Below the pieces are notes generated by a model. It did not search any database, had not been told where the DNA came from, and was given only the letters and a program-made list of their open reading frames with translations. Positions 8,762 through 13,497 of a stretch of 58,163 nucleotides of DNA are shown here, in pieces. Each line of letters starts with the position of its first letter. The first letter of the stretch is position 1. Source of the stretch: an uncultured Woeseiaceae bacterium (GTDB lineage Bacteria > Pseudomonadota > Gammaproteobacteria > Steroidobacterales > Woeseiaceae); assembly GCA_905480215.1 (NCBI GenBank), contig CAJQPL010000020.1:1-58163 (forward strand), written 5' to 3'. Position numbers and translations under genes: made by a program.

Positions 8762-10252
8762 TTACTGGGCTGAACTGACGTTCGGATAGAGTTCGTCCAA
8801 TGGCTTCGAGCGCCCATCATCCTGTACAACCCGGCAGTGAAAACGCCGCAATTCTCTGGGTTCCGAAACCCCGCAGGAGTGAGCTATTATGCCAATCTCC
8901 TTACGCATGGTTTCCGAGTAACGCTGCACACGTTTCGCTTTGTCTTCCGGTACCAGACCACGCTGCAGACGCCGACTGTGTGTTGTTATCCCGGTTGGGC
9001 AGGTGTTCTTGTTGCACTGCAGTGCCTGAATGCAGCCCAAGGCCAACATGAAACCGCGAGCCGTGTTGACAAAGTCTGCACCAATACACAATGCGGCGGC
9101 GGCTTCTGAAGGGTTAATCAATTTGCCACTGGCAATAACCCGAATGCGATCACGCAGTCCATGCCGACACAGCATGTCGACGACCAACGGCAGACTTTCC
9201 TTGATCGGCAGTCCTACATGGTCGATAAGACTCATTGGTGCTGCACCTGTGCCACCATCGCCACTGTCTACAGTGATGAAGTCAGGCGCGGACTCTATAC
9301 CGCGCTGATTAATTTCCTCGAACAACTCGTCCAGCCAGCCGTAAGCGCCGATGACAGACTTGAATCCGACCGGTAGACCGCTGACGTCACGAATTCGATT
9401 GAGCGTGTCCAGCAAATCTGCCGCTGAGTTGATTTCAGGATGTCGATTCGGACTGATCGATGCTTCGCCGACTTTGATGCCGCGTATGTCGGCGATCTCT
9501 TTTGTGACCTTTTCCGCCGGCAATATGCCGCCCTTACCCGGTTTCGCACCCTGGCTGAGTTTAAGCTCGATCATCTTGACCTGCTCAATTTCGCCTGCTT
9601 CGCGAAGTTTTTCGTCGCTTAAATTTCCGTCGTTATCACGCGCGCCGTATTTGGCTGTGCCAATTTGAAAGATCAGATCGCCGCCACCTTCGAGATGCCA
9701 TGGTGATATTCCACCCTCACCCGTATTCATCCAATTGCCGGCCATACGCGAGCCATTTGACAGAGCAAGTACCGCAGGTTTCGAAAGTGCCCCAAAACTC
9801 ATCGCCGAGACATTGACGATCGATTTAGCGTAATAGGGTTTCTTGGCGTATGGGCCGATTAGCATCGGCTTTGTCTCGGAAGCATCTTCCTCAAGCTTGG
9901 GGTAGGGACAGTTGACAAATATAGCCGTGCCGGGGCGTGCGAGACTTAGCGTCGAACCGAACGCGACAGTACTGTCGACGCCTTTTGCAGCCTGATATAC
10001 CCATGACCGTTGCGCCCGGTTAAACGGCATCTCTTCGCGATCTTGTGCGAAGAAATATTGTCGAAAAAATTCGCCCATATGTTCGAAAACATATCGGAAC
10101 CGACCGACGACAGGGAAATTTCTGCGAACTGTATGCTTCGTTTGAGTTATGTCGACGATGAACATCACGATGATGGCTAAAATCAACAGGCCAATGGCGA
10201 AAACGAATACCGACGAGAGGGCTTGTACCCAATTAAACGCATAATCAATCAT
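8762..10252 (-). CDS. FMN-binding glutamate synthase-domain protein, membrane-anchored
   Basis: A 496-residue protein with one hydrophobic segment near the N-terminus (~12-33). This is followed by the FMN-binding TIM-barrel domain of glutamate synthase large subunits. Visible marks are VDSGDGGTGAAP, the glycine-rich ASGKLINP strand, and the cysteine cluster CNKNTCPTGI that in glutamate synthase holds a [3Fe-4S] cluster. It has no N-terminal glutaminase domain, so it cannot release ammonia from glutamine by itself; its reaction is unknown. Its ATG overlaps the end of the DoxX gene by four bases (ATGA). This ties it translationally to the DoxX/HvfC/MNIO genes upstream. Family assignment is sure, function is not. 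Confidence 0.88.
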   Translation of the reverse strand: MIDYAFNWVQALSSVFVFAIGLLILAIIVMFIVDITQTKHTVRRNFPVVGRFRYVFEHMGEFFRQYFFAQDREEMPFNRAQRSWVYQAAKGVDSTVAFGSTLSLARPGTAIFVNCPYPKLEEDASETKPMLIGPYAKKPYYAKSIVNVSAMSFGALSKPAVLALSNGSRMAGNWMNTGEGGISPWHLEGGGDLIFQIGTAKYGARDNDGNLSDEKLREAGEIEQVKMIELKLSQGAKPGKGGILPAEKVTKEIADIRGIKVGEASISPNRHPEINSAADLLDTLNRIRDVSGLPVGFKSVIGAYGWLDELFEEINQRGIESAPDFITVDSGDGGTGAAPMSLIDHVGLPIKESLPLVVDMLCRHGLRDRIRVIASGKLINPSEAAAALCIGADFVNTARGFMLALGCIQALQCNKNTCPTGITTHSRRLQRGLVPEDKAKRVQRYSETMRKEIGIIAHSCGVSEPRELRRFHCRVVQDDGRSKPLDELYPNVSSAQ

Positions 10253-10746
10253 GAAAATTTCTTCGCAAGGATGTTATCGAGGCTGATCTTGCCGGCACCG
10301 CTGAATATCAGCGGGAATAACATGGCAATAAACAATAGCGGAACTCGGTAGTTACCAAATCCTTTGTCCGTTATCGCATAGCCTTTCCATAGCTCGGACA
10401 AGCTACTCCAATCGTCAGGCCAGTGAACGCCGGATATAGCAACGATCGAGACGATCACGAGGCTGAATGCCCAGAAGCGTGTAAAAAGACCAAAGAACAG
10501 GCACAGCGCGCCTATCAGTTCGGCCCAGGTGGCCATGAACCAGCTAATCTCCACCGGAACATAGTTGAATGGAAAGATAAAGTTGTCCTGAAATCGTTCA
10601 AACCAGTTTGTACCGTTGAACTTTGTCATGCCAGCGGTCCAGAATTCATAGGCCATAAGCAAGCGGATTGGCAACAAAGCTAGGTAGTCACTCATTGGGT
10701 TCAAGATGTCTATGACCTGATTCTTTAATTGATTTAACTTGTCCAT
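10249..10746 (-). CDS. DoxX-family membrane protein
   Basis: A 165-residue inner-membrane protein with about four hydrophobic segments, matching the DoxX/DoxD-like fold. The conserved RLLMAYEFWTAGMTKF stretch lies at the start of the first membrane segment. DoxX proteins are often found with MNIO (DUF692) enzymes, as HvfD/BufD, and with redox or sulfur genes. Their biochemical role is poorly defined. It sits 11 bases after the HvfC-like gene and overlaps the FMN glutamate synthase-domain gene by four bases. The context suggests a membrane redox or quinone-linked partner for the cluster; this is inference. Confidence 0.85.
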   Translation of the reverse strand: MDKLNQLKNQVIDILNPMSDYLALLPIRLLMAYEFWTAGMTKFNGTNWFERFQDNFIFPFNYVPVEISWFMATWAELIGALCLFFGLFTRFWAFSLVIVSIVAISGVHWPDDWSSLSELWKGYAITDKGFGNYRVPLLFIAMLFPLIFSGAGKISLDNILAKKFS

Positions 10747-10757
10747 TGTTTTCTCCG

Positions 10758-11534
10758 CTACCCAGTTCGGCGTGTGCCAACAAGTATTTGTAGTTGTCTC
10801 ATTTCCTTAAGGGCATCGGCGCCATGTTTTATCAAGGCAACGACATCCGGGTAATTTATTTCTTTCGCCAGCTTACGTAACAAATCTTCGCCACTAACAG
10901 CATTATCATTGTTCTCGATGGCATCGAGTAATGCTGCGGTCACGGCATTGAGTTCGAGGAAGCGAACGATGTCATCATCTTGCCGGTAAACCGCAAGGTA
11001 GACAGGTTGTTGTAGTGCTTCGGTGGGAATAAAGTCGGCAGTGATTCGATGTACAGGGTAGTGATAAGCGAATGCCCATGCCAATTCTGACTTAATCGGA
11101 CAATTACTCAACAGATCGCCATCTGTGTCTACGCCACTAAGATCGTTTTCATTTGTCGATACGCGCAGTGCGAGATCGGCGTATTCGTAGTGCGCGAGTT
11201 CGGTAATGAACGGGAAATCGTCATCAAGTTCGCGGTACTCGCCTTGTAAAAAGGCTAGAAATTCTTCGGGCAACTGCAGAAAGTAGGGCGTCTTGGCACG
11301 GTGCACTTTCATGAAGCCACGTATTGTCGCTTGCCATTGCTGCTTTGATAAAACCGTTTTGATTACCGGGAAGAAGGTGCTGAGGAGGTTGGACAAGTTA
11401 TTAAAGAATAACTTGCGATAGATAGCCATGCGACGATCTTCGATTTCCACAGGTGCAATCGTATTATCCGGGTCACGGATGTGTGCCGCGAACGCATATT
11501 GCTTATCCTGAAAACTGCGATCGTCCTCATCCAT
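10758..11534 (-). CDS. HvfC/BufC-type protein (DUF2063, putative DNA-binding domain)
   Basis: A 258-residue soluble protein of the DUF2063 family, the usual partner of MNIO (DUF692) enzymes. The N-terminal ~95 residues form the conserved helical region (RRMAIYRKLFFNNLSNLL). It was originally labelled DNA-binding by similarity but is now regarded as a recognition partner that brings a precursor peptide to the MNIO enzyme. The C-terminal half is more variable. It overlaps the MNIO gene by eight bases, so the two are probably made together as a complex. No HTH motif convincing enough to claim DNA binding was seen. Confidence 0.85.
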   Translation of the reverse strand: MDEDDRSFQDKQYAFAAHIRDPDNTIAPVEIEDRRMAIYRKLFFNNLSNLLSTFFPVIKTVLSKQQWQATIRGFMKVHRAKTPYFLQLPEEFLAFLQGEYRELDDDFPFITELAHYEYADLALRVSTNENDLSGVDTDGDLLSNCPIKSELAWAFAYHYPVHRITADFIPTEALQQPVYLAVYRQDDDIVRFLELNAVTAALLDAIENNDNAVSGEDLLRKLAKEINYPDVVALIKHGADALKEMRQLQILVGTRRTG

Positions 11535-12381
11535 GTGCAGAACTTAGCGCTTTAGTTTCTTGCTGCAGTTGTTTGATGTGGCGTACTTCGTCCAGCAAAT
11601 CTTCTATTGGTGGAAAGTTGAAGTCGCGCTCGAGTAGCGTTGGAACTGGCCCGAAACGTTCGTAAGCAGCTTGTAGCAAAGCCCAGGATTGTTGGTCCAC
11701 GGCGCTGCCATGGGTATCTATACGCAGATCCGGTGCCTCTACGTGATGGCCGGCAAGATGAAAGTAACGAATTCGCTCGGCAGGCATGGAGTTAAGGAAG
11801 TCGCCAGTATCGTATTCATGATTGATGCTGTTAACCACGATGTTATTGATGTCCAGCATCAAATCGCAGTCTGACTCTTCGAGGACAGCCAGCAGAAATT
11901 CTTTTTCGCTCATCGTCGAATCAGTCGGTGCGTAGTAAGAAACATTTTCAAGCGCTATGCGCTGCTGCAGAATATCCTGTACACGCCGCACACGACCGGC
12001 CACGTAGCGAACAGCCTCTGCGGTGAAGGGAATCGGCATCAAGTCGTAGAGATGACCATCATCGCCACAGTAGCTCAAGTGTTCCGAGTACAGGCGAATG
12101 TTGTGCTCCGACATGAAATCCTTGATGTCGCGAACCAACTGCTCGTCCAATGGTGCGGGGGAGCCGATTGACAATGACAAGCCGTGGATCAGGAACGGAT
12201 AACGTTCGGTAAAAAAGCGTAGCTTCTTGCCGAGCGCGCCGCCCACATGAATCCAGTTCTCGGGCGCAACCTCCATGAAATCGACTTCTTCCGGCGGCTC
12301 ATCCATAAGCTTATTCACCAGAGCACGCCGTAGGCCAAGGCCTGCGCCCTGTACTGGATACTGTGAATGTGAATCGCTCAT
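11527..12381 (-). CDS. MNIO family (DUF692) iron-dependent peptide-modifying enzyme
   Basis: TIM-barrel enzyme of the multinuclear non-heme iron oxidative family (HvfB/BufB/MbnB relatives). These modify cysteine residues of small peptides, giving copper- or metal-binding products. The family landmarks are present in order: GAGLGLR near the start, EVAPENW, LYSEHLSYCG, ALENVSYY, LMLDINNIVVNS, YFHLAGH, DTHGSAV and LLERDFNFPP. These supply the His, Asp and Glu ligands of the iron site. The frame opens at 12417, but ATG 12381 is chosen: it has AGGA upstream and yields 284 residues, the normal size. No small cysteine-rich precursor gene sits next to it, which is unusual for bufferin-type operons. 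Confidence 0.92.
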   Translation of the reverse strand: MSDSHSQYPVQGAGLGLRRALVNKLMDEPPEEVDFMEVAPENWIHVGGALGKKLRFFTERYPFLIHGLSLSIGSPAPLDEQLVRDIKDFMSEHNIRLYSEHLSYCGDDGHLYDLMPIPFTAEAVRYVAGRVRRVQDILQQRIALENVSYYAPTDSTMSEKEFLLAVLEESDCDLMLDINNIVVNSINHEYDTGDFLNSMPAERIRYFHLAGHHVEAPDLRIDTHGSAVDQQSWALLQAAYERFGPVPTLLERDFNFPPIEDLLDEVRHIKQLQQETKALSSAHG

Positions 12382-12439
12382 AATCGTCCTGTTCCGAGTT
12401 ATCAGAGAGACCTGCAAAGTGCTTTTTTTATTACAAGAC

Positions 12440-12865
12440 TTAGAGAGTTAGGTGTTGCAGACGCTCCAGGTATTTTTTTTCGTCAGGGGCGCTATTTTGA
12501 CTTTGCGCCTCCCATAGAGTTTCTGCAAGGCAATCAATCATTTGATGTTCTGCGGCATGCGGGTCGCCCACTTTGTTGCTTAGAGTTGTGAATACGCTGC
12601 GTATACCGGCCGGGCGATTAGTTGAAACCTGCTCACGGATTCCAAGATGCAGGCCCATGTGCAGAAACGGATTGCTTTGCCCGCCCTCCGGTGTGTAATC
12701 CTTGCCGAGGTCATCGCCAGAGACTTCAGCATGGTATTCGGGGTGCCATTCGACAACCGCGACAATCTGCGACTCCAATGGTGTGAGTGGACGAGCATCG
12801 CAGGATTTCGACCAGGCGTCCTGGTACATCTGGCGGAGTTCGTCTCTGTCCTGTCCAAAGATCAT
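12440..12865 (-). CDS. DUF1841 family protein
   Basis: A 141-residue soluble protein of unknown function, recognised as the DUF1841 family of beta- and gammaproteobacteria. Recognition rests on the N-terminal MIFGQDRDELRQMY and the central NPFLHMGLHLGIREQ. The family often lies next to nth, and here its ATG overlaps the nth stop by four bases, so it belongs to the rnf-nth transcript. No catalytic motif or membrane segment is visible. A gap of 58 bases separates it from the MNIO gene that follows. It could mark the end of the rnf-nth operon, although no clear terminator is there. Confidence 0.85.
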   Translation of the reverse strand: MIFGQDRDELRQMYQDAWSKSCDARPLTPLESQIVAVVEWHPEYHAEVSGDDLGKDYTPEGGQSNPFLHMGLHLGIREQVSTNRPAGIRSVFTTLSNKVGDPHAAEHQMIDCLAETLWEAQSQNSAPDEKKYLERLQHLTL

Positions 12866-13497
12866 GCGCTTACCTTTTTCGTAAATTCACACCACTCAAT
12901 TATCGGACACTCGAAGCACAGCGGTTTCCTGGCCTTACACACATATCGTCCGTGCAGTATGAGCCAGTGATGTGCGTCGAGCTTAAACTCATCAGGCGTC
13001 ATTTTGAGCAAGCGCTTTTCAACCTCGAGTGGCGTTTTGCCTTTCGCAAGGCCCGTCCGGTTCGAGACGCGAAAAATATGCGTATCGACAGCAATGGTAG
13101 GCTCACCAAACGCGGTATTCAAAATGACATTTGCAGTTTTTCTGCCAACTCCCGGCAGGGCTTCGAGTGCTTCCCGAGTGTTCGGGACGACGCCATCGTG
13201 CTGCTCAATCAGGATGCGACAGGTCTTGATAATATTTTCAGCTTTGCTGTTATACAAGCCGATCGTCCGGATGTATTGCTTCAGGCCGCTAACGCCGAGC
13301 TTTAAAATCGCGGCAGGTGTATTGGCAACCGGATATAACTTATCGGTCGCCTTGTTGACGCCAATGTCCGTCGCCTGTGCAGATAGAATCACAGCGATGA
13401 GCAGTTCAAAGTTACTCGCATAATTGAGTTCGGTTGTTGGTGCGGGCATTTTGTCGCGAAGTACCCGGTAAATTGCTGTGCGTTTTTCCCTATTCAT
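12862..13497 (-). CDS. nth: Endonuclease III, DNA glycosylase/AP lyase
   Basis: Base-excision repair enzyme removing oxidised pyrimidines and nicking the abasic site. The helix-hairpin-helix LPGVGRKTANV includes the catalytic Lys120, and Asp138 (VDTH) is the second catalytic residue. The [4Fe-4S] cluster cysteines are Cys187, 194, 197 and 203, in the exact C-x6-C-x2-C-x5-C spacing of the family. The length of 211 residues matches E. coli Nth. It follows rnfE by eight bases, reproducing the common rnfABCDGE-nth order, and overlaps the DUF1841 gene by four bases. Confidence 0.97.
   Translation of the reverse strand: MNREKRTAIYRVLRDKMPAPTTELNYASNFELLIAVILSAQATDIGVNKATDKLYPVANTPAAILKLGVSGLKQYIRTIGLYNSKAENIIKTCRILIEQHDGVVPNTREALEALPGVGRKTANVILNTAFGEPTIAVDTHIFRVSNRTGLAKGKTPLEVEKRLLKMTPDEFKLDAHHWLILHGRYVCKARKPLCFECPIIEWCEFTKKVSA

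Follow-up and report, generated by a model that had tools for sequence, protein, structure and literature searches.

A split captophorin-type pathway in Woeseiaceae: hvfBCX and an unlinked sigma factor–DUF3379–hvfA operon probably joined as one ECF regulon

The oxazolin system of nontypeable Haemophilus influenzae, encoded by hvfABCX, shares its three maturation proteins, as judged by NCBIfam equivalogs, with the system reported here, and its precursor HvfA likewise combines a signal-like N-terminal region with CG repeats (PMC13419390, PMC13097082). There the precursor gene lies within the operon and its repeats read EGKCG, whereas here hvfA is unlinked and the repeats read EGSCG (PMC13419390, PMC13097082). 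The 5-thiooxazole chemistry of such peptides and their binding of copper have been described (PMC13097082, PMC13419390); a fontiphorin substrate with two repeats was reported to lose 8 Da (PMC13097082). We analyzed a stretch of 58,163 nucleotides, called the window below (contig CAJQPL010000020.1 of assembly GCA_905480215.1, from an uncultured Woeseiaceae bacterium), which carries genes for an MNIO maturase, its DUF2063 partner and a DoxX-like protein with no precursor gene beside them. These hvfBCX genes very probably form one half of a split captophorin pathway (captophorins being oxazolin/HvfA-type metallophores, ribosomally synthesized and post-translationally modified peptides, RiPPs). 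The other half would be an unlinked operon of an extracytoplasmic function (ECF) sigma factor, a DUF3379 protein and hvfA, and the two would be rejoined as an ECF regulon.

An ECF sigma factor likewise belongs to the Neisseria rpoE operon (NMB2140-2145 / NGO1948-1943, gonophorin), where it is autoregulated and accompanied by genes for a zinc-binding anti-sigma (ZAS) factor and a DoxX protein; msrA/msrB is an unlinked second target there, and the promoter geometry is similar to that of the motif described below (PMC2893595, PMC3240639). The product of the gonococcal cluster is a captophorin (PMC13097082). Neisseria has one operon where we find two, with DUF3379 in place of MseR, and, unlike in Neisseria, redoxins and DsbD are extra candidate targets in the relatives studied here. 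We take NMB2141-2143 to be the MNIO, partner and precursor genes. Fontiphorin is made by fonABC, with an MNIO of the Lys-Cys type whose Arg-Arg and Asp-Phe residues are conserved in the HvfB of the window; its precursor is encoded in cis with Lys before Cys, ours in trans with Ser (PMC13097082). Bufferin (DUF2282) clusters with a sigma factor and NrsF have the themes of MNIO, DUF2063, DoxX and ECF sigma factor in common with the present system, and unlinked precursors are known there too (PMC12452194). Unlike those clusters, this genome lacks DUF2282, and its anti-sigma candidate is a DUF3379 protein rather than NrsF. In the accessible text of the open-licence literature we found no description of an HvfA-type pathway divided between two loci with a common promoter.

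The maturation genes all lie on the minus strand. The maturase gene hvfB (11527..12381; 284 aa from the ATG at 12381) scored 420.9 bits against NF003818 (cut-off 360) and 342 bits against PF05114. The partner gene hvfC (10758..11534), of the DUF2063/RRE family, PME type 1, scored 277.1 bits against NF050145 (cut-off 142) and also matched PF09836 and PF22106, and hvfX (10249..10746), for the DoxX-like membrane protein, scored 133.7 bits against NF050144 (cut-off 80) and matched PF07681. Each thus exceeded its NCBIfam equivalog cut-off, in agreement with the original prediction of a tight MNIO–DUF2063–DoxX operon. That prediction had offered BufB/C/D or HvfB/C/D as the type; the second choice stands, as HvfB/C/X, and the BufB type was rejected because the MNIO_BufB model scored only 263.9 against a cut-off of 310. 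Its MNIO match is the only one in the assembly (2.17 Mb in 87 contigs, 64.7% complete). Residues R18, R19, D253 and F254 of the window HvfB are invariant among 21 aligned homologs and line up by eye with R15, R16, D249 and F250 of FonB; the Arg-Arg and Asp-Phe residues of MNIO enzymes have been assigned roles in substrate selectivity and as a base (PMC13097082). Among solved structures the closest to HvfB by sequence is 3bww, also an MNIO, and HvfC resembles the solved protein 3dee.

Between the hvfB ATG and the DUF1841 gene is a gap of 58 bp (12382..12439, minus strand), the site of hvfA in more distant relatives. The earlier claims that this gap is empty and that no Cys-rich short peptide is encoded nearby both held: the gap has no open reading frame (ORF) of its own, the pattern [EDQ]G[KR]C[GA], which is blind to Ser-Cys repeats, had no match in window ORFs, and no window reading frame held two matches to the wider [EDGAKQ][GA]xC[GA]. 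A bufferin-type DUF2282 precursor was ruled out, with 0 matches in this genome at E <= 0.1. DUF2282 was over cut-off in 5 of 60 genomes (this one and 59 relatives), and in genomes G014, G044, G045 and G055 it adjoins MNIO genes whose scores fall short of the HvfB cut-off. A precursor hidden 3' of hvfX was also ruled out, as the genus loci contain no repeat ORF at 4 kb or less from hvfB; in the loci of two relatives, the gap ORFs scanned encode amino-acid permeases (L036, L083) and, in L036, also a TPR protein.

The precursor is encoded elsewhere in the genome, as the original prediction had offered as its first option. The search it had proposed, for DUF2282- or HvfA-like ORFs across the whole genome, found the HvfA family: matches to the HvfA repeat model (E <= 10) were confined to contig C28. 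There an ORF at C28:13536-13907 encodes 123 aa with eight EGSCG units, an N-terminus that looks signal-like by eye, and the leader PFAMSNLTVGY; it scored 40.7 bits against the repeat domain KCGExKCG (NF050137, cut-off 19.5). No precursor stands beside the maturase genes in this genome, hvfA being on the other contig. The leader, in the form PFx4[LM]x2GY, recurs in 44 of 46 trans precursors and 35 of 42 cis precursors. Two genomes with a single HvfB match each have two HvfA precursors on separate contigs (L134/L135 in G040, L146/L177 in G059).

Directly 5' of the C28 hvfA gene lie genes for an ECF sigma factor and a DUF3379 protein, the three apparently forming an operon. The sigma factor has sigma-70 regions 2 and 4 (PF04542, PF08281) and scored 206.2 against NF009170 (cut-off 197). 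Membrane ZAS anti-sigma factors carry an Hx3Cx2C-type stretch and a hydrophobic segment. The DUF3379 protein has both, the former as HASNCADC, and so do most DUF3379-like ORFs (Hx3Cx2C in 36 of 45, hydrophobic segment in 43 of 45). The sigma regions together with a neighboring membrane Hx3Cx2C protein are what would be expected of an ECF sigma factor and its ZAS-type partner, making the DUF3379 protein a candidate anti-sigma factor; we found no mention of DUF3379 in the open-licence literature. Judged from their sequences, the flanking genes are presumably hemB-, aroE- and gor-like on one side and tag-like on the other.

This two-locus layout recurs in relatives. Across the 60 genomes there was an MNIO match in 50 and an HvfA repeat match (E <= 0.1) in 48; the 59 relatives divide into 45 with both, 4 with MNIO only, 2 with HvfA only and 8 with neither. 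MNIO was found in 32 of 36 genus relatives, and each of these 32 also carries an HvfA match elsewhere in its genome. No HvfA-like ORF lies 4 kb or less from hvfB in any of them, although the sequence of one locus (L079) stops 34 bases short of the anchor on the upstream side. The whole sigma–DUF3379–hvfA trio is present in 31 of the 34 HvfA-positive genus relatives, the others (G003, G028, G036) being cut by contig ends. G099, a single contig of 4,059,891 bp, has hvfB at 2.477 Mb and hvfA at 0.105 Mb, 2.4 Mb apart, and the distance was 0.7–2.4 Mb over the one-contig genomes G099, G114 and G094 and contig C1 of G124. Meanwhile the order rnfC-D-G-E-nth-DUF1841-hvfB-hvfC-hvfX holds throughout the genus and in much of the order sample. 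Judged across these assemblies, the trans precursor is a conserved two-locus layout and not an artefact.

In the order sample (196 genomes, this one included) HvfB over cut-off and HvfA at E <= 0.01 occurred together in 66, HvfA alone in 4, HvfB alone in 12 and neither in 114, counts over related and hence not independent genomes. The proposed check for co-occurrence in relatives thus gave a positive answer. For eight of the 12 genomes with HvfB alone no precursor was found (G053, G056, G061, G085, G088, G102, G120, G126); among these eight the motif search described below covered G088, G053 and G061 only. Weak HvfA matches occurred in G056 (E = 0.074, with no convincing ORF) and G043 (E = 0.027).

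The two loci share a promoter-like motif. Upstream of the sigma factor gene, GTAATA(A/T)-N15-GGTC was present in 44 of 44 aligned regions (a 45th was left out as too short), always with a spacing of 15 although 10–18 was allowed. A place directly 5' of the ECF gene is what an autoregulated ECF promoter would have, and we infer that the motif is the promoter of the C28 sigma factor. The 58-bp gap of the window holds a match, GTAATAA-N15-GGTC (12409..12434, minus strand), 27 bases 5' of the hvfB ATG. It is the sole match in the window, where 0.03 were expected, and a putative ECF promoter for hvfBCX. This genome has two matches, one each at the hvfB and sigma loci; about 1.7 would be expected by chance from base composition, so we reject the count of two as evidence, meaningless by itself, and rest the argument on the position and conservation of the motif. 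Its GT-to-GTC distance is 23 nt, and the Neisseria sigmaE consensus, GTMAGBWTT-N12/13-CGTCTAAH, implies 22–23 nt (PMC2893595).

Among HvfB loci, all but one of the genus relatives (31 of 32) have the motif 5' of hvfB, the exception being cut by a contig end. Among the matches listed, it was present in 25 of 80 named loci and in 0 of the 42 named loci with a neighboring hvfA. After six BufB-like loci (<300 bits to the window HvfB) and nine duplicates were dropped, 149 loci became 134 distinct ones; 59 have the exact pattern, and none of these has a neighboring hvfA. The motif was also tried as a guide to missing precursors in six HvfB-positive genomes without an HvfA match (E <= 0.01), and a precursor was found in three. 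In G044, G148 and G155 the exact motif stands at hvfB, and a second match leads to a sigma factor gene, a DUF3379-like ORF (recognized by eye) and an HvfA ORF. In G211 a sigma factor gene lies behind the motif and the contig stops short of hvfA.

More distant gammaproteobacteria have the order nth-DUF1841-hvfA-hvfB-hvfC, with hvfA immediately 5' of hvfB; examples are Thiohalobacter (L212), Thiogranum (L225), HyVt-415 (L216) and metagenome-assembled genomes of Ectothiorhodospiraceae (L210, L215). Among the matches listed, 42 of 80 named HvfB loci have a neighboring hvfA, and for 19 of those 42 the stretch fetched also includes nth, DUF1841 or rnfE. Inside the order, hvfA adjoins hvfB in family f15 (L052, L309–L312, L314, L315). 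Among the findings that the original prediction had named as telling against it were relatives of the same gene order all carrying the precursor directly upstream; this arrangement was found in 0 of 32 genus relatives (one of them cut upstream) and only in the more distant ones. Because those distant gammaproteobacteria keep hvfA directly 5' of hvfB, it was probably lost from, or relocated out of, the 58-bp gap. The HvfB tree, built quickly under LG+G4 and unsupported at many forks, joins 53 rows of Woeseiaceae-type HvfB in one clade (SH-aLRT 100) that is in the split state, one row being truncated; the deeper forks are weak.

Besides the chance expectation for motif matches given above, several observations weigh against a split pathway held together by one sigma factor. 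The C28 HvfA scored 24 bits against the full-length equivalog NF050188, below the cut-off of 95, and Lys-Cys occurs in none of its eight 5-mer repeats, Ser preceding all eight Cys. Hx3Cx2C is absent from 9 of the 45 DUF3379-like ORFs. HvfA occurs without an HvfB-type match over cut-off in G002, G070, G189 and G200, and without any MNIO match in G024. Five genomes with an unlinked HvfA (G049, G059, G043, G047, G094) have no motif at hvfB, and the three failures of the motif trial (G088, G053, G061) gave no exact match anywhere, failures that leave our estimate unchanged because in these genomes the exact motif is also absent at hvfB. In favor of the link, a weight matrix for which only sigma sites served as training set divided the 134 loci into 63 with the motif and no neighboring hvfA, 49 with hvfA and no motif, 0 with both, 21 with neither and 1 truncated; its threshold of 6.5, however, was chosen after the scores had been seen. 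Four of the 63 (L064, L065, L303, L318) were matrix-positive without the exact pattern, and L313 (G078), with an HvfA match 1.1 kb off at a contig edge, was counted as having no neighboring hvfA. In 100 shuffles of each of 107 regions the top shuffle score was 18.9, though 53 of 54 motif rows outscored all 100 of their own shuffles. When motif and trans layout were compared by a sign test on the HvfB tree, the result was not significant, with 0 or 1 informative pairs of six: the trans layout and the motif occur mostly in related genomes, and their association holds at the level of clades only.

One alternative is that the precursor acts in trans and yet the two loci do not form a single regulon, the shared motif belonging to some other regulator or being a common housekeeping element. 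The regulon link is read from sequence, and motif matches in relatives include likely chance ones (0–8 per genome against 0–3 for the reversed pattern, 12 relatives). We nonetheless consider separate regulation unlikely: the motif stands directly 5' of the ECF gene at constant spacing in all aligned regions, as for autoregulated ECF promoters, and this genome has only the two matches. Moreover, its geometry falls within the range of Neisseria sigmaE (PMC2893595). Another alternative, which the original prediction had set beside a precursor encoded elsewhere, is that HvfB and HvfC act on another protein, the HvfA-like ORF on C28 being unrelated or unmodified. The replacement of Lys by Ser before Cys would fit this, as would the placing of hvfA on a separate contig of an incomplete assembly. 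However, the co-occurrence of HvfB and HvfA in the order sample, the repetition of the C28 layout in 31 genus relatives and the leader common to trans and cis precursors make it very improbable, and FonBC takes Ala, Arg or Thr before Cys, Ser not being named in the accessible text (PMC13097082). An assembly or binning artefact, with a precursor dropped from the window contig or C28 being foreign, can be practically dismissed. Low completeness and many contigs would allow for it, but independent assemblies show the same layout and contradict it: the motif with no adjacent precursor recurs at hvfB across the genus, apart from the locus cut by a contig end, and the single-contig G099 has both the motif at hvfB and the sigma–DUF3379–hvfA locus.

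The change of repeat type in the split pathway extends beyond this genome. Of 245 repeat units in the genus, 209 have Ser and 15 Lys before Cys, against 9 Ser and 93 Lys of 107 units in the rest of the order sample. Residue 256 of HvfB, two after the selectivity Phe, is Ile in Lys-Cys-type systems and Phe (or Gln) in Ser-Cys-type ones. With Ile, 49 of 50 rows had at least as many Lys as Ser units; with Phe, 32 of 35 had more Ser; both Gln rows were Ser and four of five Leu rows were not, although nine rows disagree and the Phe rows come mostly from a single clade. We regard a tie of residue 256 to repeat type as a lead only.

Building on the gene identities, trans precursor, conserved two-locus layout and shared motif, which the comparisons establish at the level of sequence, we propose the following course of events. 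Envelope stress, from excess copper or a thiol-oxidizing agent, would free the sigma factor from its membrane-anchored DUF3379 protein. The freed sigma factor would transcribe its own operon, including hvfA, and from the promoter in the 58-bp gap also the unlinked hvfBCX. HvfC would bind the HvfA leader, and HvfB would oxidize the Cys of the EGSCG units to copper-binding thiooxazoles. The peptide would be exported by way of its signal sequence and bind Cu(I) in the cell envelope. Modification of the Ser-Cys-Gly repeats, leader binding, export and a copper role are what the protein families suggest, and a copper-binding product is consistent with the family. The shared promoter would thus restore the co-expression that was lost when the ancestral hvfA 5' of hvfB disappeared or moved.

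The regulon may be wider. In six relatives (G099, G026, G029, G014, G148, G155) the motif also stands 5' of further genes, identified by family search in the first four and by eye in G148 and G155. AhpC/TSA-type proteins lie behind it in all six; others are DsbD (G026), DUF547 (G026, G148), DUF3179 (G026) and, in G099, a VTT-domain pyridine-nucleotide oxidoreductase and a DoxX protein. The number of motif matches per genome was 0–8, against 0–3 for the reversed pattern, and many other matches have nothing coherent downstream. A redoxin-like protein is likely a core member of the regulon. Similar redoxin-like proteins stand behind the motif at L324, L329, L343, L355 and L358 (G026, G029, G099, G155 and G148), the first three being AhpC/TSA by Pfam and the last two by eye. 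In G004, a reduced 1.5-Mb genome without an MNIO or HvfA match, the motif stands 5' of hvfX (L356, G004:C33:11425-11450 onward); hvfB and hvfC are gone and a short hvfB-like remnant is left. HvfX may therefore work without the peptide.

Around the maturation genes, a glutamate-synthase-domain gene (8762..10252, minus strand; PF01645, 282.7 bits) overlaps the end of hvfX by 4 bp as an optional member; the span 8762..12381 of the original prediction takes it in without naming it. A PF01645 homolog lies within the hvfB locus in 14 of 32 genus relatives and, among the matches listed, in 16 of 80 named HvfB loci, including those of distant lineages (L223, L236, L239, L255). Such a protein, which may be a recurrent accessory of hvf clusters, goes unmentioned in the main text of PMC12452194. 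On the other side, the DUF1841 gene (12440..12865, minus strand; PF08897, 174.6 bits) is a conserved upstream neighbor that served as synteny anchor, as did the nth-like gene (12862..13497, minus strand), part of a conserved gene order with rnf-like genes upstream. The names nth and rnfCDGE are presumed from sequence rather than from a family search.

A fuller account, which we offer tentatively and hold to be somewhat less than an even chance, is that in Woeseiaceae and several related families precursor loss split a RiPP pathway and turned it into an ECF regulon of extracytoplasmic thiol and copper defence (hvfA, hvfBCX, redoxins, DsbD). Lys-Cys-Gly would have given way to Ser-Cys-Gly alongside the change of Ile256 to Phe, and HvfX, with a role of its own, would have stayed under the shared promoter in G004 after the loss of hvfB and hvfC.

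Genome mining for metallophores of this kind spans five genes on each side of the MNIO gene (PMC12452194). Split pathways would appear to lack a precursor, since such mining stays within a few genes of the MNIO gene. A shared promoter offers a direct route for pairing maturases with substrates, one that worked in three of six genomes missed by hidden Markov model search. The Woeseiaceae offer a clean example of the dissolution of an operon whose parts a shared promoter seems to have rejoined functionally. Woeseia oceani, a cultured member, was the most abundant identified taxon in a marine biofilm on copper surfaces (PMC6917582). The split pathway would link captophorin-type peptides to an envelope thiol-redox sigma factor regulon in this marine group.

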